A DNA stretch of 64,000 nt from Ectothiorhodospira haloalkaliphila ATCC 51935. GTDB taxonomy: Bacteria; Pseudomonadota; Gammaproteobacteria; Ectothiorhodospirales; Ectothiorhodospiraceae. The DNA lies in assembly GCF_000633935.1 (NCBI RefSeq), contig NZ_KK214996.1, positions 494,928 to 558,927 of the forward strand, in the 5' to 3' direction. Numbering within the stretch: position 1 is the stretch's first letter; every line of letters begins with the position of its first letter. The notes below the pieces were generated by a model. It saw only the letters and a list, made by a program, of their open reading frames with translations. It ran no database searches and was not told the origin of the DNA. This document shows, in pieces, positions 51,219-64,000 of this stretch. A program made the translations under genes and the position numbers.

Positions 51219-51610
51219 CCGCCTGCGGGTCCACCAGGGTTTGTCGCTGGGCCCGGCTCAACGACCGAGCCTGCGCGATAAAAAATCCCGTTCCACCGTC
51301 AGCTTGCCGATCTCACGGTACAGGGTGTCGATCTCCTCCTGGGTCTTCTGGGCCGCCTTGCCCCCGCCCTTGCCCTCGAAGATCCCCGTCGCCTTGTCCA
51401 GCAACTCACGCCGCCACTGACTCACCATGGTCGGATGGATCTCGAAGCGGGCTGCCAGCTCCGAGGTGGTCTGCTCCCCTTTGAGGGCCTCAAGGGCCAC
51501 CTTGGCCTTGAAGTCAGCGCTGTATTGCTTGCGTTTCCTGCTCATGATCAGATTCTCCTGTCGGAATGATCAGAGCTTAACCCCTGGTCCGAATTTTGGG
51601 GTCCACCTCA
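51219..51610 (-). mobile_element. IS3-family insertion sequence remnant
   Basis: An intact orfA and one terminal sequence remain. The outer end near 51610 reads TGAGGTGGACCCCAAAATTC on the minus strand, a typical IS3-group terminus beginning TG. After orfA, another frame encodes LSRAQRQTLVDPQAVDA, matching the start of orfB, but breaks into ychJ at about 51219. The rest of orfB and the other end are missing, so the element cannot move by itself. Confidence 0.85.
51258..51545 (-). CDS. IS3-family transposase OrfA
   Basis: The 95-residue product starts MSRKRKQYSADFKAKVALEA after AGGAG. It has a helix-turn-helix (TTSELAARFEIHPTMVSQWR) and a leucine-zipper-like C-terminal region ending LTVERDFLSRRLGR, the classic OrfA layout. 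In intact IS3 elements, programmed frameshifting fuses OrfA to OrfB; OrfB is truncated here, so the protein is probably non-functional for transposition. Confidence 0.93.
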   Translation of the reverse strand: MSRKRKQYSADFKAKVALEALKGEQTTSELAARFEIHPTMVSQWRRELLDKATGIFEGKGGGKAAQKTQEEIDTLYREIGKLTVERDFLSRRLGR

Positions 51611-52011: not shown

Positions 52012-52098
52012 CCTCTCTCCGATGTCAGCCGCCAAGCAAGCTCACATGAATGTTAAATGAAGCATCCCTACACTATCAGCGATCACGCACACGACAAG

Positions 52099-53058
52099 TC
52101 ATCGTCGAGGCAGCTCTCTGCCCTTCACGAGAACCTCCTGACCTGTTTCAAGCCGGTAGGAGTCTGGAAAGAAATGCACAAGCCAGAGTTTGACCACGCG
52201 CCAGACCTGCGCGTACTCTTCTTCCGATCCCGTGCCGCCAAGGCTGGCAGCCAGAAACTCGTGAGCTTTCGTGTCCGTCAAACCGGCCGCCGCCAGCTTG
52301 TCTACCTCTGCAAGCAGCGGCATCTGTTTCAAGATGCCCGCCACATAGGCTGTGAAGAGATCCTGCGTCAGCCCCTGAGGCGGTGACAGCGCCGCCAGAT
52401 CCGCCTGAGCCGCCTCGAACGCGCTGGTCACCATCGTATCGGCGCCGCGCCCGCGATAGACCTGCCAGAGGCGGTCCGGTGTCGGGCATCGCGGTACCCA
52501 CAAGGTCTGCTCAACCTCCGTCGCAACATCGTCTTCAACCTCCGGAAGCCGACGCGGGGTTTTGTCTTTTTTCAGGTCATCGGCCTGCCGGCGAATGCGG
52601 TCGCGCAACTCTTCAGTGGCTTGCACGGCGGAGCCCAGCAGCGCGTGTTCCCATTCGGCCAGCCCTTCGAGCTCGGCCGGAAGGGCGACAAGCAACTCGA
52701 CATTGGACGGTGTGTGCCAGCCGAGGCCTCGCGCTGTAAGGTTGGCAGAACCGACGAGACAGTCCCTGCCGTTCGAATAGTATTTCGCATGCAGGTGCGG
52801 ATGGACCAGAAGGCGTCCGCCGCGCGCGCCGGCGATGTCCTCGAGGATTTCGAGATCACAGACGCCGGAGGCGATGTCCTCGGGAAGCCAGCGCGTGACA
52901 CAGATGCATTCCGACACCGTCTCGGGGACGGCATGGAGCAACCGGCGCAAGGTCGGGGATTTGATGTACGGCGCTGCTATGACCACCCGGTCGTTAGCGG
53001 CCCTGACAAGTTCGAGAATACCGTCGCCGGGAAGGACAACCGCCATGTCATTCGTCAT
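52099..53058 (-). CDS. Phospholipase D-family nuclease-like protein (putative SspH/effector)
   Basis: The 319-residue protein has one HKD-type motif: H90-A-K92 in HLHAKYY, followed by LVGSANLTARGL (Gly-Ser-x-Asn). The spacing to the acidic residue is not canonical, as in other defence-linked PLD proteins. A single motif implies a dimer if catalytic. The N-terminal half is the PLD fold; the C-terminal half (about 160-319) is unassigned, with an acidic, charged stretch near 150-170. It overlaps the GHKL ATPase gene by 11 bases; an alternative ATG at 53046 exists. PLD proteins act as nucleases in other systems (for example DISARM DrmC is PLD-like). Here it is the last gene of the island and probably cuts DNA, but this is inference. 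Confidence 0.83.
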   Translation of the reverse strand: MTNDMAVVLPGDGILELVRAANDRVVIAAPYIKSPTLRRLLHAVPETVSECICVTRWLPEDIASGVCDLEILEDIAGARGGRLLVHPHLHAKYYSNGRDCLVGSANLTARGLGWHTPSNVELLVALPAELEGLAEWEHALLGSAVQATEELRDRIRRQADDLKKDKTPRRLPEVEDDVATEVEQTLWVPRCPTPDRLWQVYRGRGADTMVTSAFEAAQADLAALSPPQGLTQDLFTAYVAGILKQMPLLAEVDKLAAAGLTDTKAHEFLAASLGGTGSEEEYAQVWRVVKLWLVHFFPDSYRLETGQEVLVKGRELPRR

Positions 53059-54883
53059 CCTCTTCGGTGAGGAAGAAGCGCGCCATCTTTCCCCATTCCT
53101 GCCGCATCTCGAACAGCCGGTTCTTCTGCCGAACTTCCTCCATCTCGTAGCGCGCCCAAGCGGCGAACAGCAGCTCCAGCGTGTCGGCAGCCGTGTGAAT
53201 CCGCTCCATCAACTCGGCATCGGTCTCGTCGCCGATCTGGGGTCGCAGCGATTCAATCAGTTGGTCGTAAAAGGGATGGTTGCTATTGAAGACGACTTCA
53301 GTCAGCCCGCCTTGTTTGTGTTCGACATTGAAGAACGCATAACCTTCCATCGACTTTTCAAGGAACAGGACCTTCCGCTTGCGCGTGAAAGTCGCTTCGG
53401 CGATTTCCCGGGCAACGTCCTGACGGTAGTGTTTGTCCTCCATCAGGTCTTTCTCGAGATCGTCGCGATCCTTCTCCGTGAACTCTTCGCGGTCAGACTC
53501 CGTCTCGTGTCCCTGTTCAGCGCGCTCGCGGAATTTTGTCGTGGCTAGGTCGGAAACGTCAGGCTCGTCATGCCTGTCTTCTTTCGTCCGACGTCCGACA
53601 TTCTGTTTCTTGAGGCGTTTGCGCACCTCCTGAATCTGGTCGCGTATGTGATCGACGATGGGCAGCAGAATCGCGCGCGGATCGCCTTCGCCCTGTATGC
53701 GTTCCTGAAACTCCGACCGCGATTCGCCGGGATTGGCTTCGGCCTTCCAGTCGAACTGGGCCATATGCGAGAAGATCGTCGCGCTTTGCTTGGTGTTGGT
53801 AACGCCGAACACCTCGTCGAGCGTCGAGGGAAACTCGACCTCGACGCCCCACCAGCGTTCGGTCGGGTCGTAGCTATTGGTCCATGCGGGATCAAGGTCC
53901 AGTTCGCGGCCCTCGCGGACGATTGACAGGCCGATGTTCTTAGCGGCGTGTTTGCCGTAGGGCTTCGAGCCGCGGTCGCTCCTGTCTTCCGGCACGGTTT
54001 CTTCCCGCGCCCAGCTCATGCGGACCACGACATCGTGCTTTGCGCCGTCATAGTCGATGGAGAATACCTCGTCCGCGCCACCCCAGGGCTGAAACATCGG
54101 CTCCGTGTTGAACGGGGCGGGGGTCGATGAATCGCGCATCAGGTAGAGCGGGTCGTTGACGCGCACCGGTTCGTCGAAGGTAGGTTCACCCTCGTCTTCG
54201 GGCAATGCCAGGAGCCGGATCGAAAGGCGTCCGTCGTCGATGAATTTCCGGTACATACGCCCGACAAGTGATTCTGTGTGGCGCAGCGTCGCCTGCGCGC
54301 CGCGCCAGCTCAGGCGATGATCGTCGAAATTCGTCCAGAGCACGAGCGTGCCGGTCGTCTCGACGTCGTCGGAACGGGCGCGCCATTCATCGGGAAGCGG
54401 TTTGTGCGCAGGGGCCGGAACCGCATACAGCCGCCGCCCTTCGATTTCATCGACATCGAGATAGGAATACATGGCATTGTCCGGACCGTTCTGCCATGTC
54501 CAGACTTCCACCCGGCGACACTGCGAAATCGACGAGTTCGGCAGGCCCATACCGAAACGGCCGATACCCTTCCGGTCCGTCAGATGCGTGCCGTTTCCGA
54601 ACTGAAGGGCGAGACGCAGCGTCTCGGGGGTCATGCCGTCGCCGTTGTCCAGGATGCCGATTGCCTGAATCCTCCGGCTGGCGCGTTCGTTGACCTGCCG
54701 ATACCCTTCAAGGCAGATCACCTCGACATTGCCGGCGTTCGCCTGAACGGAATTGTCGATCAACTCCGCAAGCGCGTACGCGGTGTTCTTGTAGCCGCTG
54801 TCGCGCATGGCCTTCACGGCCAGTTCAGGCGGAATGATTTCTCCATCGAGCCTTTGCGACTCAGCAGCTTCTGTCAGGCTCAT
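53048..54883 (-). CDS. GHKL (Hsp90/MutL-type) ATPase of defence module
   Basis: The start at ATG 54883 is chosen because GGGAGG lies about 10 bases upstream; it gives 611 residues. The Bergerat-fold motifs are clear: N-box AELIDNSVQ (Glu40, Asn44), G1 box DNGDGM (79-84) and G2 box GIGRFGMG (106-113). The C-terminal half is highly charged with a probable coiled coil (about 430-520) and an acidic end (TEEDDE). I cannot match the C-terminal region to a named domain. It overlaps the helicase gene by 23 bases and the PLD gene by 11 bases. GHKL ATPases are recurrent in defence islands, probably as ATP-driven sensors or clamps. Confidence 0.9.
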   Translation of the reverse strand: MSLTEAAESQRLDGEIIPPELAVKAMRDSGYKNTAYALAELIDNSVQANAGNVEVICLEGYRQVNERASRRIQAIGILDNGDGMTPETLRLALQFGNGTHLTDRKGIGRFGMGLPNSSISQCRRVEVWTWQNGPDNAMYSYLDVDEIEGRRLYAVPAPAHKPLPDEWRARSDDVETTGTLVLWTNFDDHRLSWRGAQATLRHTESLVGRMYRKFIDDGRLSIRLLALPEDEGEPTFDEPVRVNDPLYLMRDSSTPAPFNTEPMFQPWGGADEVFSIDYDGAKHDVVVRMSWAREETVPEDRSDRGSKPYGKHAAKNIGLSIVREGRELDLDPAWTNSYDPTERWWGVEVEFPSTLDEVFGVTNTKQSATIFSHMAQFDWKAEANPGESRSEFQERIQGEGDPRAILLPIVDHIRDQIQEVRKRLKKQNVGRRTKEDRHDEPDVSDLATTKFRERAEQGHETESDREEFTEKDRDDLEKDLMEDKHYRQDVAREIAEATFTRKRKVLFLEKSMEGYAFFNVEHKQGGLTEVVFNSNHPFYDQLIESLRPQIGDETDAELMERIHTAADTLELLFAAWARYEMEEVRQKNRLFEMRQEWGKMARFFLTEEDDE

Positions 54884-56519
54884 CCCAAACGTCCTCCCAG
54901 TTCTTGAATGCGTCGGCCACGCTGCCAAAGCCAGGCAAGTGCGGATCGACAACCGTTACAATCTCGGCCTCGTCATTTCCACCGGCCCGCGTGCCGCGCG
55001 TCGCCCTGCCGACCATCTGGCTGTAAAGCACAAGCGACCGTGTCGGGCGCGCGATGACGGCTGCACTCGTCGCGGGCGCGTCGAATCCGGTGGTCAACAC
55101 ACCGTAGTTTACAACCACCATAGCGCGATTATCTTTACTTTTGAAACGCCTGATTACTCTTTCGCGTTCCGCTGTATTGCTTTGACCGGTTACAACAAAT
55201 GCTTCATGTCCGCGTATGGACAAGATCGCCGTAAGCACGCGCGCGTTCTCCACCGATGGCGCGAATACGATGACGCGGCGATGCCGCGTCATCAGGTCTT
55301 CGACTGCGGACAGGATTTTCAGGTTGCGCTGCGTGTCCGTACCCAGACGCTCCAGAATCTGTTCCGGCACGTCGATCGCGGATGAGAGCGCATTGACATC
55401 GTTCTCGCTCAGCGTGAGCCCCGCATCGGAATTTAGTGTGCGGAAGGTTGGGCGCGCAAGATATTTCTGGTCGATCAGGAAAGTGACGGGGTCGTCGTAA
55501 CCTTCGACTTCGAGCGTGACCTTACGGCCGTCGAAATAATCCGAAAGCTTGCGGTCCTCGCCGATATCCGACCAGCTTCGTCCGGGCGTCGCCGTGAGGC
55601 CCAGCAAGGCGTTGTGCGGCCGCTTGCTGTAGAGGGCCGTAAGGATCGCCGCGTATGTCGGCGCAATCGCCTGGTGAGCCTCGTCGATAATCGTCAACGA
55701 GACGCGGTCGGCCAGACGCAACAGGGTTGCGGCATCGCGGTTGTCGAGCGCCGACATCTTGGCGAGGCCGGAAACGATCACACCGTCCTGTATGTCGAGA
55801 ACATCCGGTCTCCTGTGTCCCCAGAAGCGGACGAGTGCGGTTTCCCGATTACCGAGAAACTTCCATGCATTCTCGAACTCGCCCGCGGCTTGGTCCAGAA
55901 GTTCGGCATTCTGGGCGAGCCAGCAGACGACGGTCGGCTCGCTCCGGCGCAGATGTTCCGCCACGATGTGCATGGCCGTGCGGGTCTTGCCCGCGCCTGT
56001 CGGCATATGAAGAATGACCTTGCGCGGCGCGTCGCCAAGCGCATGCACCACACGCTCGGCAGCGGCACGCTGGTGATCGAACAGCGCGTATCCGGCGGAT
56101 GCCTTCGTGGCGTCCGGCGCCGAGTCTGCCGGCGCGCGAACGTCCCGGACCACGCCGAAGAACGAGTACAACACAGCCAGCGCCGCAGAATCGGCGGCGG
56201 CGACGCAGAGATCGTCGTATAGCGTGCGGCCGTCTTTCGCGCCGAGATGCCCGCCCAGCTCGCGCGCCTTGGATAAGGGCAGCATGCGGATGATGCGGCT
56301 GCGCATTTCCGGGTCGCGCAACGCTTCGGAGGGTTCGACAAGGTTGACGGCAAGCTCCCCGAGCCGGGTGCCGGAGTCCAGTTCGGGGTCGAGCCCCCGA
56401 AGCGTATCCACGATCGACGGACCGATCACCTCGCGCAACGCAGATGCCTTGGCGTTGCGCAACAGGGTTTGAAGGGCCATGCCCGGTACGGTGTCAGGCG
56501 TGTGGGTCGATCTGGTCAT
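54861..56519 (-). CDS. SF2 DEAH-box helicase of defence module
   Basis: The 552-residue protein contains a complete superfamily 2 core: Q-like ALFDHQ (about 145-150), Walker A HMPTGAGKTRT (171-181), DEAH box IIDEAHQ (277-283), motif III GLTATPGR, then motifs V and VI with GVLTTGFDAP and QMVGRATRG near residue 500. An N-terminal region of about 140 residues is not recognisable. The start is uncertain between ATG 56519 and ATG 56480, neither with a strong ribosome-binding site. It begins 90-129 bp after the DGQHR gene, the widest gap in the island, and is coupled to the GHKL gene downstream. The likely role is DNA translocation or unwinding for the effector module. Confidence 0.92.
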   Translation of the reverse strand: MTRSTHTPDTVPGMALQTLLRNAKASALREVIGPSIVDTLRGLDPELDSGTRLGELAVNLVEPSEALRDPEMRSRIIRMLPLSKARELGGHLGAKDGRTLYDDLCVAAADSAALAVLYSFFGVVRDVRAPADSAPDATKASAGYALFDHQRAAAERVVHALGDAPRKVILHMPTGAGKTRTAMHIVAEHLRRSEPTVVCWLAQNAELLDQAAGEFENAWKFLGNRETALVRFWGHRRPDVLDIQDGVIVSGLAKMSALDNRDAATLLRLADRVSLTIIDEAHQAIAPTYAAILTALYSKRPHNALLGLTATPGRSWSDIGEDRKLSDYFDGRKVTLEVEGYDDPVTFLIDQKYLARPTFRTLNSDAGLTLSENDVNALSSAIDVPEQILERLGTDTQRNLKILSAVEDLMTRHRRVIVFAPSVENARVLTAILSIRGHEAFVVTGQSNTAERERVIRRFKSKDNRAMVVVNYGVLTTGFDAPATSAAVIARPTRSLVLYSQMVGRATRGTRAGGNDEAEIVTVVDPHLPGFGSVADAFKNWEDVWDEPDRSC

Positions 56520-56609
56520 TGTTCATTCACGGCGGGTGCGATGCGCCTGACCTTTCCTGTTCATGTCATTCTTGTGCATTCTCGCCCATCCGCTCCGCGG
56601 TATACGGTT

Positions 56610-57872
56610 TCACCTGATCTTTTCCGGCAATTCAGCCGCATCATCGCCGGTTTCTCTTTGATACCTCTCAAGCAATGTCGCTTCAGTGTAGTTCTTTGCG
56701 TTCTTCCCGACCATGTACAAAAGAACTTCACGAATAGTCACCTTGTGGCCGTTGAGCATGATCTTTTTATTCGGCTCCCACATGAGCCACCGAAACGGTT
56801 CTTCATCGAGGCTATCGGGCAACTCGGCTGCCAGCTTGGCGGCCCGCGCCAGGCTCATATCCTTCGTGAAGCGGGCGATCACACGAGTCATGATTTCCAG
56901 TCCGATCGGCCGAAACAGGACATGCCCGCCATGATTCCCACGATACTTCTTGACCACCGGTTCGGTGTTCTTCGCGCTGAAAAATTCGTCCAGCGCTTTG
57001 AAATTCTTTCTGAGCTGAAGGAAATAGCTTTCCGCGAACCTCAAATATTTATCCAGCGTCTGGTCGTCGGCACGGACCCTCTGCAAATCCGCCTTCTGCT
57101 CTCTCAAATCCGAATACGCGTTGGTAAACAGGATCGTCAGCACGTCGTAGAGGTTGGCGATTGTCGTTAAGCTCGTCGTGTTGGCGGTCGGCATGTTGTT
57201 GCTGGCGACAAAAGCGAGCCTGTTGTCTGCGAAAAGCTTCGTTTCTTCAATGAGTCGCCTTACGCAAATGGCCATGACATCGTCTTCATCGAGGGCGATG
57301 ATTTCCCCCTTGGAAACGGGTCGTGCCGTCTTGTTCAAGGTCGTGAACAACCGGCGTGTGCGCTCCAATCCTTTTTTGGTGTCCTTGTGTCCGACGAATA
57401 TGACGGAGAGTTCATCATAGGGGTCGTTGTCCAGACCGTCTTTCACAGCCTTCTTGATGCCCGCCAGACGATGCTGACCGTCAAGCGCAAAAAGCTTCTC
57501 CTGTCCCGTCAGCGTCAGGAAGCCGACAGAGGAAACCGTATCCTCGGTCAGGTTCTTCAACTCATCCGGGGCGGTCTTGCTCCGAACATCCGAAAGGGCG
57601 TGCCAGTTCGGCTGGCCGCCGTATGTAGCAATGACAAGGGAATTGAAGAAGCGCTCGGGCTGCCTCTTGAGATAATCCGCTATCTGTGCGGCACGGCCTC
57701 TCTTGAGGTGTCTTTGGATCATGTCCGAAAGCTCTTCGTTCTCGTGGATTTCCTCCGCGAAGTTGACGCGGGAACTCAATTCCCCCACGTCCATAAGGCA
57801 TGAATAGAAAACCCAGTCGCCCATGACGCCACGGAGGGCCGGCAGTACGATTTTCTTGTGCTTTTTCGCCAT
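56610..57872 (-). CDS. DGQHR domain protein (DndB-like)
   Basis: The 420-residue protein carries the diagnostic FALDGQHRLAGI (DGQHR at residues 131-135). LSVIFVGHKD and FTTLNKTARPVSKGEIIALDEDD follow, typical of the DndB/DGQHR family. DndB is a transcriptional repressor of dnd genes in some double-strand phosphorothioation systems. A DGQHR gene is not part of the core SspABCD set, so its presence here is notable. Its ATG overlaps the GIY-YIG stop by one base (TAATG) and GGAGGG lies 10 bases upstream, so the two are coupled. A regulatory role or a DNA-contact role are both possible. Confidence 0.9.
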   Translation of the reverse strand: MAKKHKKIVLPALRGVMGDWVFYSCLMDVGELSSRVNFAEEIHENEELSDMIQRHLKRGRAAQIADYLKRQPERFFNSLVIATYGGQPNWHALSDVRSKTAPDELKNLTEDTVSSVGFLTLTGQEKLFALDGQHRLAGIKKAVKDGLDNDPYDELSVIFVGHKDTKKGLERTRRLFTTLNKTARPVSKGEIIALDEDDVMAICVRRLIEETKLFADNRLAFVASNNMPTANTTSLTTIANLYDVLTILFTNAYSDLREQKADLQRVRADDQTLDKYLRFAESYFLQLRKNFKALDEFFSAKNTEPVVKKYRGNHGGHVLFRPIGLEIMTRVIARFTKDMSLARAAKLAAELPDSLDEEPFRWLMWEPNKKIMLNGHKVTIREVLLYMVGKNAKNYTEATLLERYQRETGDDAAELPEKIR

Positions 57873-58393
57873 TACCGGAACGCCCTCCGTTTTTGCTTTG
57901 TATCGGCTTCAAGGTCTCCCTCGGAGAACGGCGGCATCAGCGCCGTGTTGAGCTGTTTTTCGAGCGCCTGCAAATCATTTGAGGAAATATCATCGTCGAT
58001 GGGAGCGAAATAGAACCGCAGCACCTGATGCCAGGTTCCGATCATCCGTGCTATGCGTGCGCGTTTCTTGACCTTTCTGGCATTGAGATACTCCTTATAC
58101 CGGTCCCTCAGCGAGCGTTCGGAATCGCGTCCTGCGATTCCAATGTAGAGAACGTACCCGTGGGGCGGTAGAACAGCATTATTCCTGCAAATCGCGAAAG
58201 CGTAGATACCTCGCTTGTCAGCAGGAACCTTTTCCAGCTCTTCGTCACCGTAGCTGATGGAGTCCCACGCAAGGGCCTCGATTGCGTGCTCATTCGCCAT
58301 CATCTTGTCTGGCGACAAAGTGACGGGCACCGTGTACTTGGCGATTTCCTCGGTTGCCTCGTTTGCAAAATCTATCAAGGAGTCCAGGTCCAA
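57872..58393 (-). CDS. GIY-YIG domain protein, putative nuclease
   Basis: The 173-residue product has the two hallmark strands RGIYAFAI (residues 61-68) and YVLYIGIAGRD (80-90), then a helix with RSLRDRYKEYL supplying the conserved Arg, and E145 in LQALEKQLN in the metal-binding position. The catalytic set (two Tyr, Arg, Glu) thus looks complete, suggesting a single-strand-cutting endonuclease domain. The first about 55 residues are unassigned. The start is TTG at 58393, 21 bases after the sspD stop; an internal ATG at 58303 is an alternative but lacks a ribosome-binding site. It lies inside the ssp operon and is coupled to the DGQHR gene. Confidence 0.85.
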   Translation of the reverse strand: MDLDSLIDFANEATEEIAKYTVPVTLSPDKMMANEHAIEALAWDSISYGDEELEKVPADKRGIYAFAICRNNAVLPPHGYVLYIGIAGRDSERSLRDRYKEYLNARKVKKRARIARMIGTWHQVLRFYFAPIDDDISSNDLQALEKQLNTALMPPFSEGDLEADTKQKRRAFR

Positions 58394-58414
58394 CCGTCCG
58401 TGCCCCCGCCTTCT

Positions 58415-59251
58415 TTATTTGTGACACGCCAGACAGACTTTGGCCTTGCCGTACAGGTCGTCGATATCCAGCGGCTCGCTGTCCGGCCGGAGCGGGTTCG
58501 GCTGAACCTTCGACTTCATGCGGGCAAGCCGTTGTTCGTGCTCTTCCCTGATCTGCGCGACGCGCTCCGGCTGCTGCAGCTCTTCGAGAGATTCGCCCTG
58601 GCTCCAGGTGAACGGGGAACCGTGTTCGACAGCGTCCTTCTCATACGCTTTAGCCTCTTCGAATGCGTCCGGGTGTTGCTCCTTAAGCCGCACCCATTCA
58701 ATTTTCTGCTGGAAGAAGCAGAAGGTGCAGCCGCTGCGGGTCCGCCACTCGTAATATTTCGGCAAGCCGAGCCCGGCCCCTTCCAGGACATCGAGGACGC
58801 CGGCCTTGTCGATTCCGGCTTCCTTGAACGGCAGCTTCACGATCAGCTTGTCATGCTTCGAGGAATACCCGTCACGGTATTCCTCGTCACTGCGGATGGC
58901 GACGTAGCTGTACACCGTAATGCCGTCGTCGAGCATTGGGCGTAGCCAGCGCTCGAACGGGCGAAGCTTGAGCTGCCGCGTGCACCAGCGCGTCTGGGGC
59001 GACGGCAGGAAATCATTGTACTGCTTGAGCCAGAAATCGAAGTCGCGGTCGGGATTCAGTCGCAATATCGGTTGCCCGAGAAAGCCCTCCAGCCGCCCGA
59101 GATATTCGTAGACTTCGGGCAGCTCTTTGCCGGTGTCCGTGAAGAAATATTCGATTTTCAGCTCAGGAAGATGCTGACGCATGTAGACGGCAAGAGCCGC
59201 GCTGTCGCGGCCCCCGGAAAGACCAAGGACGTGTCTCACAGGACCGTTCAT
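58415..59251 (-). CDS. sspD: Phosphorothioation sulfurtransferase SspD (PP-loop, DndC-like)
   Basis: The 278-residue product belongs to the PAPS-reductase/ATP-pyrophosphatase family with the PP-loop LSGGRDSAAL (SGGRDS at 12-17) and FTDTGKELPE. Cysteines C90 (RWCTRQLK), C175/C178 (SGCTFCFF) and C273/C276 (KVCLACHK) could hold an Fe-S cluster, as in DndC/SspD. It would activate the DNA phosphate and insert sulfur. The ATG at 59251 overlaps the sspC stop by one base (TGATG); the TTG three bases earlier is a less likely start. The sspB-sspC-sspD order is that of the single-strand phosphorothioation system. Confidence 0.92.
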   Translation of the reverse strand: MNGPVRHVLGLSGGRDSAALAVYMRQHLPELKIEYFFTDTGKELPEVYEYLGRLEGFLGQPILRLNPDRDFDFWLKQYNDFLPSPQTRWCTRQLKLRPFERWLRPMLDDGITVYSYVAIRSDEEYRDGYSSKHDKLIVKLPFKEAGIDKAGVLDVLEGAGLGLPKYYEWRTRSGCTFCFFQQKIEWVRLKEQHPDAFEEAKAYEKDAVEHGSPFTWSQGESLEELQQPERVAQIREEHEQRLARMKSKVQPNPLRPDSEPLDIDDLYGKAKVCLACHK

Positions 59252-62200
59252 CAAGACGCAGCTCTTCCTTTCCCGTTCTTCTTGGGCAGTGCAGGCTTTT
59301 GCATGTAGCGCGTGCTCAGTTCCGCCAGCGCAGCGAGAATGATGCTGCGCCTGGTTGTGTCGGATTCGTCGAGCGCCGCTTCGACACGGTCTATGAGCGC
59401 GTTTACGGCTGCGCGGTCCGAGTCCGCAAGATAGAATTCTTCAAGAATCGGCGCGGGCCGTCCGTTCGTGCCGATAACGACGGCCATCGCATGACGCTTG
59501 TCGGGACGGCCCTTGACGCGTGCGTAGGTTTCCGCGCGAAGGAATTTCTGCGCCATATCGGCGACCTCGATCGCTGCCTGGTCAAGGTCGGGATCGACCC
59601 AGTCGCGCGGCGGCTTGTTCGCGGCCAGACTGGCAATCCCCTCGAAACTCTCGTCCGAACCGTCGAAGCGGGCCAGCCGACCGACGAAGGCGTCGAGCCG
59701 GAAGTCGCCGGCGAGCTGTCTGATATTCTCGGCGCGCTCACGCAGCTCCGCGAGAGACTGCGACGAAATGTTCGGCACCTGCAATTCGGCGAGCATCAGG
59801 TCGCGCATGCGATGCAGCATGGACGGATAAGCCTGCACCAGCTCTTCGAGCCCGTCGCGGACACTCTCTATCACCCGGCGCAGATCGGCATCCGTGTCTA
59901 GCGCCACGTCCTCTCCGAGGGTTCCCGGAATATCATCGAACAGGAATCGGTTCGGATCGTGCGCGCGTTTGAACAGGTCGCGAATGCGCGCCGCGTTGGC
60001 GGACAGGCGCATTGTCCGTGTCGTCCAGTTCGGCAACTGCTCGAATATGGACATCAACCCGCGACCAACGTCGATGGGTTCAAGATGCACAAGCTCGTTG
60101 GTCTGATCGAGATCGCGAACGACTTCCGCCATATCCGACAAAAGACGCCGCGCGATATCCGTCAGGTCCATCCAGCGCAACTGGATGACGGTCGCGTCCT
60201 TGGCGAGATAATCGGCATCTACATCGTCGAACCGGACCCTGAAAATTCCCTCGCGGTAAACCGCAAGCTTGTCACGCTGGGACTGGATGAACGCGACGGC
60301 GAGAAGCGGCATCAGGCCGTCTTTGACGCCGAACGGCGGATCGCGCCACAGCTCGAAAATCTCCGAAACGGTCACCGTCCGTTCGGCATTCTTTTTTACG
60401 TATTCGAAGGCGGCCTGCCACATCGGCGCGAGACCGCACGGATCGTCACCGTCCGTGGGCGCAACGAACCGGAACGTCTTGCCCTGCCGGACGTACAGGC
60501 GGGTTTTTTCCAGGATGGAAGCAAACAGCCCGCCTTCGGCCGGGTAGCCATCGATACCGAGCCGCGCGTCGCCTTCATTGACGACCATGCGGTGCAGCAA
60601 CTTGTTCTGCGCCATTACGGCGCTGCCGGACGGCTGTTGCCGGTTGAGCAATTCGTTATGAAGACGCGGGCTCTCGGGGAAGCGGCGGTCCGCCAGTTCC
60701 GAGGCGATGCTGTTCAGATCGGCCTGTTGCAGCCGCTTTTTGTGATGTTTTTTGCGGAACCACAGCGCATTGTCGAAGGCTTTGTGCAGTTCGGTTTCCA
60801 AAAGCGCCTGCAACGCAGCAAGCCGGGCCGAAACCTCCCGTCGGGCAACCTGGTCTCCGGCCAGTTCGGGGTGACTGTTGCTGACGTTTTCCAGCGCGAT
60901 CAGTTCCCGGGCCAGCGGCACGACGGCCCATGACTGTTTGGAAATGCCGACGACGATATCGCCCTTGCCCTTCCCGCTGTGGGAGGCCGCTTCCCGGCAA
61001 AGCTTTTCAGCCCGTCCCTCTTTTTCTCCCTCAATCGGGATCGCCAGCAGAAACTGTCCGATCGAGCCATTTTCCGGCTCAAATCCGGCGGCGAACTCGA
61101 CGATGTCGCTGACCGGCACGATGTTCACATCGAACCACCGCATGGCGCCGGTTTCGTGGTAGTGGCGCTTGGCGAGGATCGGCTGAAGACCGGCAAGCGA
61201 CTTCAGGTGCCCGAAGTCGATCTCGTCGATTTCATCGAGCGCCGTCCGGACGGCCCGTTCGATATCGAAGTCGCTGCCGGCGAAAATGGCGCGGGCGTCG
61301 AGAAACTTTTTGAAGATCGTGAGCGACCAGCCGTCGAGGTCGGAAAGCGCCTTCTCAATTGCCTTTTGCGGCGTGTCGGGAAAGCAGGATTGCAGCAATT
61401 CGGAATTCGGAAGTAGGCCCGAGCGTTCCTTGAACAGGTCGATCACGGCAATGGTCTTGAGCAACCTGACATGCAGCGCATCGCCGCCAAGGGACTCGCA
61501 GCGTTCCAGCACTTCGGCCGCCAGCGCCCACCGGTGTCCGTCAGGCGAAGCCAGTATGGACGGCTCGAGGTTGGCGCGCAGATAGTCCCACAGCCGGTCG
61601 GGGCCGTAGAGTTCGCCGTCCTTCGCATGGTTCAGGAAGTTCTGAAATCCGTGCAGTTCGGATGAATTGAGGAATCCGAAAATACTGCGCTGGTTCTGGC
61701 CGAAACGCCGCCGCGAAATCGGGCCAAGTAGCGCGGCGACGACCGGGTGCAGCGGCCAGCAGTCCTCAAGCATCGAAGCCAGCCGCGAAGCGTCCTCTCG
61801 AGGCCGATCGCGCCGCGCGAATGCGGCGACCGAAGACGCAAGAGCGCCCGGCTTCTTCGCGACATGATCGCTCTCTATCGCACGGGAGATGAGGTCGATT
61901 TGTTCTTCACCCGCCGTATCGACGACAAGGTCGATGAACCGGCCCTGTATCTTCGCCCATTCGTCCCGCATGTCATGCGAGAGCCGGTGCGCGTATTCCT
62001 CAAATGCCTGGTGCAGCACGCCGACGATCAGGAGACGCCCGTTGCTGCGTGAAGCCGCTTCGGCGAGCTGCTGAAGGATGTAGATATCCGAGCCGTCCTG
62101 CGCGGCGGCTTCGAGAAACTTACCCATTTCGTCGATGAAGAGGACAAGCCCGCCATGGGTCTTCGGCTTACATGCGGCCGCGTCGGTAAGCGTCTCTATC

Positions 62201-62649
62201 AGGTTGGTCTCGGTCCATCCGCCGCGCGGTACGCGCGGCACAAGCCCGGCTCTTTTGGCGGCTTCACCTATGACTGTAACGGGATCTGCGCGTGTACCGA
62301 CGACGGGAAGGATGCGCCATCCCTTCGTGCCTGTCGGCAAGGCTTTCCGGATCGTATTCGTCAGGCTCTGCCCGAAAACCTTCGCCGCCTGTTTTTGCAA
62401 TCCGACATCGCCGTTCAACAGCGCGGCCAGCGCAACGGCAAGGCTGGATTTGCCGCTGCCGTAGGGGCCGGTCCAGGTGAATGCGCCCTGTCCGGTCTCG
62501 GACACGTGCCGCGCCATCGTGGCGAGAACTTCCGCTGAGGATTGCGGGCAGGCAAAGCCGTCGAGGGCAGCGGCGTCCCCGAGGTCGGTGTCGATGCGGA
62601 CCGATCTCAGGAAACGGCGGGCGATGCGGACGCGCTCCTTTAGTAGCAT
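59251..62649 (-). CDS. sspC: Large P-loop ATPase SspC
   Basis: The start at ATG 62649 (MLLKERVRIARRFLRSVRID), preceded by AAAGAGG, gives 1132 residues. Walker A is WTGPYGSGKSSLA (GPYGSGKS at 61-68) and Walker B LVLFIDEMGKFLE (Asp173, Glu174). The remaining about 900 residues are largely helical, with no domain I can name. The size and position between a DUF4007 gene and a PP-loop gene identify it as SspC, the ATPase of the SspABCD phosphorothioation complex. It overlaps sspB (TAATG) and sspD (TGATG) by one base each, implying fixed translational stoichiometry. A longer frame upstream to 62766 overlaps sspB and is not used. Confidence 0.9.
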   Translation of the reverse strand: MLLKERVRIARRFLRSVRIDTDLGDAAALDGFACPQSSAEVLATMARHVSETGQGAFTWTGPYGSGKSSLAVALAALLNGDVGLQKQAAKVFGQSLTNTIRKALPTGTKGWRILPVVGTRADPVTVIGEAAKRAGLVPRVPRGGWTETNLIETLTDAAACKPKTHGGLVLFIDEMGKFLEAAAQDGSDIYILQQLAEAASRSNGRLLIVGVLHQAFEEYAHRLSHDMRDEWAKIQGRFIDLVVDTAGEEQIDLISRAIESDHVAKKPGALASSVAAFARRDRPREDASRLASMLEDCWPLHPVVAALLGPISRRRFGQNQRSIFGFLNSSELHGFQNFLNHAKDGELYGPDRLWDYLRANLEPSILASPDGHRWALAAEVLERCESLGGDALHVRLLKTIAVIDLFKERSGLLPNSELLQSCFPDTPQKAIEKALSDLDGWSLTIFKKFLDARAIFAGSDFDIERAVRTALDEIDEIDFGHLKSLAGLQPILAKRHYHETGAMRWFDVNIVPVSDIVEFAAGFEPENGSIGQFLLAIPIEGEKEGRAEKLCREAASHSGKGKGDIVVGISKQSWAVVPLARELIALENVSNSHPELAGDQVARREVSARLAALQALLETELHKAFDNALWFRKKHHKKRLQQADLNSIASELADRRFPESPRLHNELLNRQQPSGSAVMAQNKLLHRMVVNEGDARLGIDGYPAEGGLFASILEKTRLYVRQGKTFRFVAPTDGDDPCGLAPMWQAAFEYVKKNAERTVTVSEIFELWRDPPFGVKDGLMPLLAVAFIQSQRDKLAVYREGIFRVRFDDVDADYLAKDATVIQLRWMDLTDIARRLLSDMAEVVRDLDQTNELVHLEPIDVGRGLMSIFEQLPNWTTRTMRLSANAARIRDLFKRAHDPNRFLFDDIPGTLGEDVALDTDADLRRVIESVRDGLEELVQAYPSMLHRMRDLMLAELQVPNISSQSLAELRERAENIRQLAGDFRLDAFVGRLARFDGSDESFEGIASLAANKPPRDWVDPDLDQAAIEVADMAQKFLRAETYARVKGRPDKRHAMAVVIGTNGRPAPILEEFYLADSDRAAVNALIDRVEAALDESDTTRRSIILAALAELSTRYMQKPALPKKNGKGRAAS

Positions 62650-63608
62650 TAGGCGGCCTCTTTCCCGGGGCGCGAAGCGTAGTCGCCGGGCAGCCTGGAA
62701 AGCGCCGTCTCTTCGCCGATCTCGATGTTGCGGACAACCTGCTTGAGTCCGGCGGTTTCCGACCACCGGAGTGCGCCGTCCGTAGCATCGTCGAGCACAG
62801 CGAGGCGGTCGGCCACGTCGTTCTCGTCGAATTGGAACACGCGCCCCGGACTGCCCGGCGCGTGGGCAATGGCCTCGAAGGACAGCGTGGCGGCGTTGGG
62901 ATAGAAGCGAGACCAGAAATCAACGAGGGCGTAAGCGAATACGCCGTCGCCCAAGGTCGATTTCGGACCGCGCACGAAGCGAAATCCGTCGTTCTTGCCT
63001 ATGGCTTTGATGAGCCCCAACTCCGTCAGCGGTGACTCAAGGGCATCGTCATGCCCGGACTTCCCGGACGGCTGCCGCGCGACGTAGGTGCGAATGAAAC
63101 AGGCCACGTCGTTCTTGAGCGTGGTTTGCGCAACGCGCGACCATCCGCGATCGCTCGCAAGGCGGTCCAGTTTCCGGATCAAGCCGTCTCGCTCAAACGT
63201 AATGGCGGGGTAATGGCTGAACGCCCAGAACCAAGTGGTTCGTTCAGGGTGTGCCGCGAACTGCCAGTGAAGAAGCCAAAGAGTTGCGGGATATTCCATC
63301 CACGGATCGAGTCCACCGGGACCGAACAGCAACCGGCCGAGTTCGGTGGTTTCAACCGTGTTGGTGGCAGGCTCCCGGATAATTCGCGCCGCTTTCGCCC
63401 AATAGCGGATGGAGCCGACCATGTTCTTGCCGACACCGAAACGCGCTATGGCCTCGTCGTCCCAACACGCAGCGCGGTTGTCGGTTTCGGACTCTGTCTC
63501 GGCGACGCGGTCGAACGCCTTTTTCAGCCACCCGTAGCGCAACGGGAAGGTTTCGTGCCCCGAAAACTGCGGGCTGTAGTCATTCTGAAAAAGCGGTCCG
63601 CGCGCCAT
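62649..63608 (-). CDS. sspB: DUF4007 nickase SspB of DNA phosphorothioation system
   Basis: The start at ATG 63608, with GAGGGAG upstream, gives 319 residues. The DUF4007 hallmark FSGHETFPLRYGWLKKAF is at residues 15-32, followed by GVGKNMVGSIRYW and a C-terminal FDENDVADRL. SspB in the described SspABCD system is a DUF4007 protein with nicking activity that opens one DNA strand for sulfur insertion. The upstream in-frame extension to 63674 lacks similarity. It is first in a tightly coupled operon and is divergent from sspA with a 153-bp gap. Confidence 0.93.
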   Translation of the reverse strand: MARGPLFQNDYSPQFSGHETFPLRYGWLKKAFDRVAETESETDNRAACWDDEAIARFGVGKNMVGSIRYWAKAARIIREPATNTVETTELGRLLFGPGGLDPWMEYPATLWLLHWQFAAHPERTTWFWAFSHYPAITFERDGLIRKLDRLASDRGWSRVAQTTLKNDVACFIRTYVARQPSGKSGHDDALESPLTELGLIKAIGKNDGFRFVRGPKSTLGDGVFAYALVDFWSRFYPNAATLSFEAIAHAPGSPGRVFQFDENDVADRLAVLDDATDGALRWSETAGLKQVVRNIEIGEETALSRLPGDYASRPGKEAA

Positions 63609-63644
63609 GTCTCCCTCGGGCTGCTGGATGATGCGTCCAGCTCG

Positions 63645-63674
63645 ACTGTACCCCGAATGGCGTGCTACGGTCAA
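63645..63674 (-). promoter_or_regulatory. Possible promoter for the sspBCD operon
   Basis: On the minus strand TTGACC (63674-63669), an 18-base spacer and TACAGT (63650-63645) loosely fit a sigma-70 promoter. The leader to the sspB start would be about 30 bases. The match at -10 is only partial. Confidence 0.4.
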
Positions 63675-63680
63675 TGCATG

Positions 63681-63697
63681 CTGGAGACGGGCTCCAG
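63681..63697. promoter_or_regulatory. Inverted repeat in the sspA/sspB divergent region
   Basis: CTGGAG-ACGGG-CTCCAG is a 6-bp inverted repeat just upstream of the putative sspB -35 box and about 65 bases before sspA. It could be an operator, for example for the DGQHR protein, but nothing in the sequence proves it. Confidence 0.3.
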
Positions 63698-63761
63698 AAG
63701 CGAGCCGATGCCGGAAAGCGGCAACCCGCAGGGCTTTGAGCCTCTATGTCATTGAGGAAAC

Positions 63762-64000
63762 ATGAAAATCGGAAAAACGATATATCTCGACCATCAGGCG
63801 ACGACTCCGGTCGATGCACGTGTTTTAGCCGAAATGACGCCGTATTTCAGCGAATCTTTCGGCAATCCGCATTCATCGGATCACATCCTCGGGTGGGACA
63901 CATCGCGTGTCGTGGACAATGCAGCCGCGCGAGTCGCGCGGCTGATCGGCGCGGACCCCGATGAGATCATCTTCACCTCTGGGGCGACCGAAGCGAACAA
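63762..64000 (+). CDS. sspA: Cysteine desulfurase of phosphorothioation system, N-terminal part (runs off window)
   Basis: From ATG 63762, after TTGAGGAAAC, the frame encodes [20 protein letters not shown], then [13 protein letters not shown] and [11 protein letters not shown]. This is the N-terminus of a PLP-dependent NifS/IscS-type cysteine desulfurase of the DndA/SspA kind, and the frame stays open to the window end (about 79 codons). It would mobilise sulfur from cysteine as a persulfide for SspD. The PLP Lys and the active Cys are beyond 64000. It is divergent from sspB and completes the SspABCD set. Confidence 0.93.

Follow-up and report, generated by a model that had tools for sequence, protein, structure and literature searches.

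A 64,000-nucleotide stretch of the 3.45-Mb genome of Ectothiorhodospira haloalkaliphila ATCC 51935 (positions 494,928 to 558,927 of contig NZ_KK214996.1, referred to as the window) ends in a cassette of nine genes, in which the SspABCD set for phosphorothioate (PT) modification of DNA is accompanied by a GIY-YIG/DGQHR gene pair and by a triad of genes for an SF2 helicase, a GHKL ATPase, and a PLD-family nuclease. All nine genes of the original prediction were confirmed as open frames. The divergent cysteine desulfurase gene sspA (63762–64949, plus strand) runs beyond the window end; its in-window part (63762–64000) comprises 239 of 1188 bases, and the whole gene was called as an open reading frame at L003:690-1877. 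The other eight genes lie on the minus strand and are transcribed in the order sspB (62649–63608), sspC (59251–62649), sspD (58415–59251), GIY-YIG (57872–58393, TTG start), DGQHR (56610–57872), SF2 helicase (54861–56519), GHKL ATPase (53048–54883), and PLD nuclease (52099–53058). The starts of sspB, sspC, sspD, and the GHKL gene were shifted inward, guided by profile and alignment starts. The stop of sspB and the start of sspC overlap in TAATG, and the coordinates indicate further overlaps for sspC/sspD, GIY-YIG/DGQHR (one base), SF2/GHKL, and GHKL/PLD; given these successive overlaps, the eight-gene block looks like a single operon. Promoter and terminator scans yielded numbers at chance level.

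The nearest relatives share DNA similarity over positions 52085 to 64949, i.e., the nine genes to within 14 bases. Identity is 85 to 90% over 52095–63716 for locus L042, 75 to 81% for L043, 71 to 72% in two pieces for L044, and 74 to 76% for L057, whose match is likewise split in two and spans 52085–64949. Both limits of the cassette are shown by L057, which has unmatched sequence past either end; the L042 to L044 stretches reach only to the sspB/sspA end. Eight of the nine genes are found in L042 and L043, the sspA position lying beyond their stretches. The layout had been described as unfamiliar, and no name for the set was found among the PADLOC 2.0.0 matches or in the papers searched, but it is not unique: L044 has all nine genes in identical order, and L034 (a Roseobacter litoralis plasmid), L048, L115, and L075 have them rearranged.

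The assignment of the modification core was corroborated by strong PADLOC matches over whole or near-whole profiles. Specifically, SspA matched with an E value of 5e-128, the DUF4007 DNA-binding subunit SspB with 2.1e-107 (Pfam PF13182, 1e-85), the large, BrxC-related AAA+ ATPase SspC with E = 0 (1350 bits, profile positions 1 to 1044 of 1045), and the PP-loop/PAPS-reductase-like sulfurtransferase SspD, which features an SGGRDS PP-loop motif, with 4.1e-138 over the whole profile. The three genes that had been named sspB, sspC, and sspD from their translations thus show similarity to SspB/C/D in profile searches. SspA also matched DndA (9.5e-125) and remained below the NCBIfam IscS and DndA equivalog cut-offs. 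As judged from these four genes, the locus encodes an Ssp-type PT modification core, and PT chemistry probably takes place in the host. The SspE profile PDLC02790 found no match in the whole E. haloalkaliphila genome, the same search being positive in 5 of 14 control genomes. SspF, SspG, and SspH were not matched among the eight minus-strand proteins or in the 20-kb stretch L002, the rest of the genome not having been searched for them. SspE and SspFGH were consequently rejected as names for the locus.

Proteins of the triad

The SF2 helicase contains ResIII (Pfam, 3.5e-22) and Helicase_C domains, and RadD is its best solved relative (6.3e-23 in a PDB sequence search). The NCBIfam models RadD (2.6e-36) and dnd_restrict_1 (1.9e-14) were matched under their cut-offs, and PADLOC PbeA was matched in the helicase region only (5e-26). 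The GHKL ATPase was recognized by HATPase_c_3 (Pfam, 2.3e-21), and its structure model, built from 29 alignment rows with a predicted local distance difference test (pLDDT) value of 83.3, points to a MORC/MutL-like fold of GHKL plus S5 type: MORC3 ranked first (Z 21.9, root mean square deviation 4.0, 312 aligned), followed by SMCHD1 (Z 21.1), MORC4 (20.9), and MutL (19.0). These structural matches cover residues 2 to 432, so that the final approximately 180 residues are barely tested. By eye, GLSIVREGREL fits the MORC motif GhXhhpXXRhl, except for an E at an expected h position. MzaB was matched at 69 bits, its cut-off being 850.

The PLD-family protein possesses a single HxK...GSxN motif, which is kept in 77 of 81 PLD family frames; across the families examined, catalytic motifs are retained in most members. 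PLDc_2 scored 19.9 of the 27 bits needed (Pfam, 0.0007), partial PADLOC matches were obtained to DrmC (8e-7) and ZacB (1.2e-7), and a PDB sequence search gave no match at E 1. All triad proteins showed partial matches only in PADLOC 2.0.0. At L111:9950-12637, a GHKL domain and a PLD-like domain (below the Pfam cut-off) are fused in one 895-residue frame, suggesting a physical partnership of GHKL and PLD. In the Nostoc-type cyanobacterial loci L087, L089, L093, L095, L099, and L105, PLD was not recognized and the helicase frame is short (351 to 393 residues) and lacks a Walker A motif; an HTH + HNH gene precedes this frame in L093.

Linkage to Ssp and exchange of modules

A scan with nine GHKL proteins returned 191 relatives, the best 80 of which were analyzed, so that nearer relatives are over-represented. 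The classes used in the surveys rest on custom profiles with thresholds, and some loci are contigs of metagenome-assembled genomes (MAGs). The 80 loci, spread over 12 phyla, contained sspB/C/D in 69 cases and any ssp gene in 71; the SF2 helicase was present in 76 and PLD in 62. Measured on stop-to-stop frames, the gap between the nearest ssp and triad genes had a median of 167 bp and a maximum of 6.9 kb, with 55 of 69 gaps not exceeding 2 kb, and Ssp lay upstream of and collinear with the triad in 45 of 73 arrangements. Among 52 matching plasmid records, eight neighborhoods were examined, and all eight contained ssp genes. Across 398 sampled Pseudomonadota genomes, a set that includes E. haloalkaliphila and is counted as one sample, DUF4007 occurred in 11 genomes and a strong full-length GHKL match in 6, all of them within those 11; with E. 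haloalkaliphila excluded, co-occurrence was 5 of 5 (Fisher p 3e-9). None of the 26 genomes with weak GHKL matches only had DUF4007.

Some triad loci show additional features. At L047:12807-17044 and L051:3890-8244, a histidine-kinase-like GHKL gene and an unknown partner gene lie between ssp and the triad; the extra GHKL domains are HATPase_c_3, HATPase_c, and HEF_HK, the last being under cut-off in L047. Gaps of similar size occur in L049, L050, L076, and L091, contents having been examined in L047 and L051 only. The pair resembles the HEF_HK two-component-like pair of PMC8011034, here located beside a PT system (papers are cited by PubMed Central number, and all statements about them refer to the parts consulted). 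For the Halobacillus loci L118 and L187, a lone triad is situated amid apparent housekeeping genes, and Ssp with SspG/H-like genes lies on another contig of the same genome.

The nine genes constitute three recombining modules, namely SspABCD, the SF2/GHKL/PLD triad, and the GIY-YIG/DGQHR pair. The linkage of the five additional genes to the core, as originally proposed, is real and conserved, but it is a linkage of modules rather than that of one nine-gene unit. SspF/G/H or PbeA were found in none of the 80 triad stretches, and SspE in 7. A further view was provided by a survey led by SspB, in which DUF4007 searches in five phyla gave 65 loci, one per positive genome and with the focal ones excluded; dropping 11 loci without recognizable SspC left 54 Ssp cores. 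Here the triad was counted by GHKL alone (>200 bits) and was present in 14 cores, with PLD recognized in 11 of these, compared with 9 for SspFGH and 10 for PbeA (one core having both SspFGH and PbeA). No effector was recognized in 22 cores, at least 5 of them on stretches shorter than 15 kb. With a stricter cut (SspC >300 bits and >700 residues), the triad occurred in 14 of 51. By phylum, it was found in 5 of 10 cores of Pseudomonadota, 5 of 19 of cyanobacteria, 0 of 3 of Actinomycetota, 3 of 9 of Bacteroidota, and 1 of 13 of Bacillota. For example loci, PADLOC bore out the labels SspF, SspE, and PbeA. The ten cores in which SspBCD shares a stretch with PbeA-like PLD-helicase genes are L123, L134, L149, L150, L155, L160, L169, L173, L175, and L177; Pbe has been described with Dnd.

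Effector swapping was seen on this one modification core. On an SspC tree (FastTree, 102 rows), the triad, SspFGH, and PbeA states need 13 changes, a count that omits rows without a recognized effector. The triad state alone needs 21 changes, 18 of them forced by starred branches, against a shuffled mean of 31.9; this count separates triad-plus-SspE and no-effector rows, and 13 is the fairer figure. Supported sister pairs with different effectors are L131/L124 (triad versus SspFGH) and L079/L125. Tree distances for 57 non-redundant loci correlated strongly within modules (GHKL-SF2, 0.89; SspB-SspC, 0.94; SspC-SspD, 0.87; SspB-SspD, 0.80) and less between them (0.34 to 0.58, with 0 of 999 permutations as high), indicating that the modules co-travel but exchange partners. 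The frame at L041:24838-27864, upstream of sspA, joins SspF-like and SspH-like pieces; located next to a diverged SF2/GHKL pair, it appears to be what is left of an SspFGH module, so that the triad-plus-SspFGH label of L041 on the SspC tree does not denote a complete SspFGH.

The GIY-YIG/DGQHR pair

The GIY-YIG gene was not matched by Pfam, PADLOC, or NCBIfam. Residues G62, Y64, Y83, G85, R98, and E145 are invariant in eight alignment rows, and with the structure model (pLDDT 70.6) a second aligner ranked GIY-YIG folds first. Its top eight rows, at Z values of 4.9 to 7.7 and thus all below 8, comprise R.Eco29kI (Z 6.8), which is named as GIY-YIG, and I-TevI (Z 7.3), 2lwf, 9u75, and Hpy188I, which we take to be GIY-YIG folds; Foldseek gave no match at E < 0.001. 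On the strength of its motifs and a modest predicted fold, the gene is assigned to the GIY-YIG superfamily. The DGQHR protein scored 119 bits with NCBIfam DGQHR TIGR03187 (cut-off 58.85) and 98.2 bits with Pfam DndB (cut-off 29.1; 6.4e-28). Its classification as DndB proper was rejected, TIGR03233 giving 56 bits, far under the equivalog cut-off of 328. PDB sequence searches with the DGQHR protein and the GIY-YIG alignment were empty at E 1. A DGQHR domain beside PT genes is shared with DndB and PT-associated DGQHR proteins (PMC4507180, PMC3226654); the protein described here differs in falling under the DndB cut-off and in its pairing with a GIY-YIG gene. The operator TACGN10CGTA known from work on DndB (PMC4507180) had five one-mismatch matches in the window, compared with 5.75 expected, and none between sspA and sspB; being at chance numbers, it lends no support to DndB-like autoregulation.

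The pair behaves as a block. In L057, sspD is directly followed by the helicase gene and the pair is absent as a whole. Among 30 DGQHR frames of at least 300 residues (loci L034 to L189 plus the E. haloalkaliphila locus, L086 and L138 apparently being one contig twice), 18 have a GIY-YIG gene immediately upstream. Twelve of these 18 pairs lie beside Ssp and the triad, one beside Ssp and PbeA (L160), one beside Ssp and SspFGH (L188, SspF/G/H confirmed), one beside Dnd and CxC (L189), and three beside Ssp where no effector was apparent (L143, L159, L168). Its occurrence with Ssp-SspFGH as well as with Dnd indicates that the pair tracks phosphorothioation, not one effector. Should the pair function alongside the single-strand chemistry of Ssp as well as the double-strand chemistry of Dnd, its target would be the sulfur as such and not a particular sequence motif. 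GIY-YIG (URI) genes near Dnd loci have been described as boundary genes and possible backup effectors (PMC10853773); the passage on URI genes in that paper does not contain the GIY-YIG/DGQHR pairing.

Candidate function of the triad and surroundings of the cassette

The locus is most likely a PT restriction-modification system of the Ssp type with the triad as putative effector module. In the mechanism that we propose, SspA would take sulfur from cysteine and SspD would relay it, whereupon SspB and the SspC ATPase would insert it into the host DNA backbone. An ATP-driven GHKL dimer would clamp DNA, the RadD-like helicase, probably in complex with it, would translocate along the DNA, and the PLD nuclease would probably nick or cut DNA carrying too few PT marks. 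The GIY-YIG/DGQHR pair would be an optional PT-linked accessory, with DGQHR as a sensor or regulator of the PT level, probably sensing or limiting PT, and GIY-YIG probably as a second nuclease. Coupling of the triad to PT, with either sign of discrimination, appears quite probable to us; the more specific proposal of an Ssp-kind PT restriction-modification system with the triad as an effector attacking under-marked DNA has about an even chance of being correct. For the sign, attack on unmarked DNA as by SspFGH is slightly favored over activation by marks as for SspE and Pbe. SspFGH harms cells without PT, and SspE acts only with marks present (PMC8092258). The adjacency of most triads to ssp leans toward the SspFGH-like sign, and few triads seem to stand alone, which would fit a module that damages its host when unrestrained.

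Several known systems share parts with the cassette. SspABCD-SspFGH has in common the SspB/C/D(+A) core with an adjoining three-gene effector cassette, but this cassette encodes a Walker-A protein, SspG, and an FtsK-like protein (mBio 2021, PMC8092258) instead of a helicase, a MORC-like GHKL ATPase, and a PLD protein. SspABCD-SspE (PMC8092258) shares the modification core, but SspE was not matched in the E. haloalkaliphila genome. DndCDEA-PbeABCD (Nat Commun 2019, PMC6459918) likewise combines PLD, a ResIII helicase, and a clamp-type, SMC-like ATPase with a PT module; PbeA is a fusion, PbeC is of the CxC/SMC-like kind, and the chemistry is of the Dnd type, whereas here the genes are split, the ATPase is of the GHKL type, and the core is Ssp. 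By this analogy Pbe is the closest known effector in parts, a MORC-like clamp apparently replacing the SMC-like ATPase. The MORC/paraMORC restriction-modification operons of Iyer et al. 2008 (PMC2292703) unite a GHKL-S5 ATPase, an SFII helicase, and a nuclease in a predicted restriction-modification role, with DNA methylases and endonucleases as partners in place of the PT genes seen here. PAPS or phosphoadenosine occurs 0 times in the text of that paper, and "sulf" only in a species name; among the species that it lists are Nitrococcus mobilis and Marinobacter sp., whose names are shared by the triad records L053 and L064, and its Fig. 2 may already draw the triad. PT effectors in the literature searched (PubMed Central papers under open licences) are SspE, SspFGH, DndFGH, DndI, and Pbe, and no description of SspBCD with helicase/GHKL/PLD or of triad-PT coupling was found there.

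Several observations weigh against a PT-coupled triad that cuts under-marked DNA. Eleven of the 80 triad loci are without sspB/C/D; DUF4007 is located elsewhere in the genome for five of them (L118, L046, L052, L104, L119), and none was found genome-wide for L077, L111, L112, L113, L117, and L121, which represent five MAGs and one draft isolate. The L118 triad (Halobacillus) has no ssp gene within 10 kb; the genome carries an Ssp core and SspG/SspH-like genes on a separate contig. PLD was unrecognized in 18 of 80 loci, mostly in Nostoc-type cyanobacteria and with some loci cut by contig ends; in these loci, the nuclease may be dispensable or have a substitute. In the Agrobacterium plasmid locus L040, full-length SspFGH occurs together with a diverged SF2/GHKL pair, and exclusion between triad and SspFGH is thus not absolute.

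The strongest competitor, which we regard as possible though the less probable sign, is a PT-activated triad of the SspE/Pbe kind that is inert without marks and is licensed by host marks to stop phages from replicating, whether or not it cuts their DNA. Pbe itself argues for this opposite sign: PbeA, a PLD-ResIII helicase fusion beside an SMC-like ATPase, belongs to a system that blocks replication without cutting, depends on PT, and does no harm in its absence (PMC6459918). The likeness of the triad helicase to the PbeA helicase region and to dnd_restrict_1 points in the same direction, as does the SspE sharing a locus with 7 of the 80 triads. Set against this, solitary pbeAC is common (320 of 553 without dnd, PMC6459918), whereas triads mostly adjoin ssp (69 of 80), like a module dangerous alone, of which SspFGH is an example (PMC8092258). 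The contrast with pbeAC is a weak argument for the sign, because solitary pbeAC lack dnd but may have ssp. That the triad is an independent defense system merely sharing islands with Ssp would account for L118 and for the moderate between-module correlations, but is improbable in view of the short median gap over 69 loci, the collinear arrangements with Ssp upstream, the linkage in all five genomes other than that of E. haloalkaliphila, and the replacement of SspFGH or PbeA by the triad on the same core.

A mainly epigenetic or redox function, with PT marks acting in gene regulation and the MORC-like ATPase compacting or silencing DNA instead of destroying it, would suit a GHKL fold closest to MORC/SMCHD1 ATPases, which in eukaryotes act in gene silencing. 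Despite this, and despite a reported link of PT to gene regulation (PMC9239176), we consider it very unlikely, since the linked PLD and GIY-YIG nucleases keep their catalytic residues and plasmid carriage and patchy distribution fit defense. Least probable is that the cassette represents a named non-Ssp system such as BREX type 4, DISARM, MZA, or Dnd-Pbe, although SspC resembles BrxC, PLD resembles DrmC, GHKL resembles MzaB, and the helicase resembles PbeA. BREX type 4 is defined by PglZ and BrxL together with DUF4007 and PAPS reductase genes. DISARM consists of the helicase DrmA, DrmB, the PLD protein DrmC, and a methylase, and MZA of full-length MzaB with MzaA, C, D, and E. Among the eight minus-strand proteins, PglZ, BrxL, DrmA, DrmB, MzaA/C/D/E, DndD, and DndE were unmatched at E 0.001 (for PglZ and BrxL, the rest of the genome was not searched), and the three triad proteins gave matches that are either partial or well under curated cut-offs. 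Accordingly, BREX type 4 was rejected for its missing PglZ/BrxL, DISARM because partial DrmC was the sole match, MZA on the MzaB score, and Dnd-PbeABCD since PbeA is matched in its helicase region only, PLD is separate, and DndD, DndE, and PbeC are unmatched among these proteins.

The triad offers a concrete, testable candidate answer to a recognized gap: of 2,678 sspBCD sets, 2,211 are accompanied by neither SspE nor SspFGH, which raised the question of other restriction partners (PMC8092258). In the survey led by SspB, the triad was no rarer than SspFGH or PbeA (14, 9, and 10 of 54) and could help explain the missing attack partners. We give roughly equal weight for and against the broader proposition that the triad is a further PT-coupled effector class beside DndFGH, SspFGH, SspE, and Pbe that serves a large share of the SspBCD sets at present regarded as orphan, with GIY-YIG/DGQHR as a portable PT-responsive nuclease pair. 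A MORC-type ATPase would thereby be tied to sulfur-based self/non-self recognition, which, if true, would mean that bacteria employ a MORC-type DNA clamp in immunity.

The cassette appears to occupy a mobile-element-scarred site. An integron-integrase fragment (L003:2440-2823, 4e-18) lies approximately 1.5 to 1.9 kb past the window end, just beyond sspA, and the frame at window positions 51258–51545, before the PLD gene, is by eye an OrfA that we presume to be of the IS3 type. To the right of the island, the frames at L003:5000-17700 look by eye like a sulfur-oxidation cluster (Hdr-like, lipoate-related, and DsrE-like, as we take them to be), and the host is thus probably a sulfur oxidizer.

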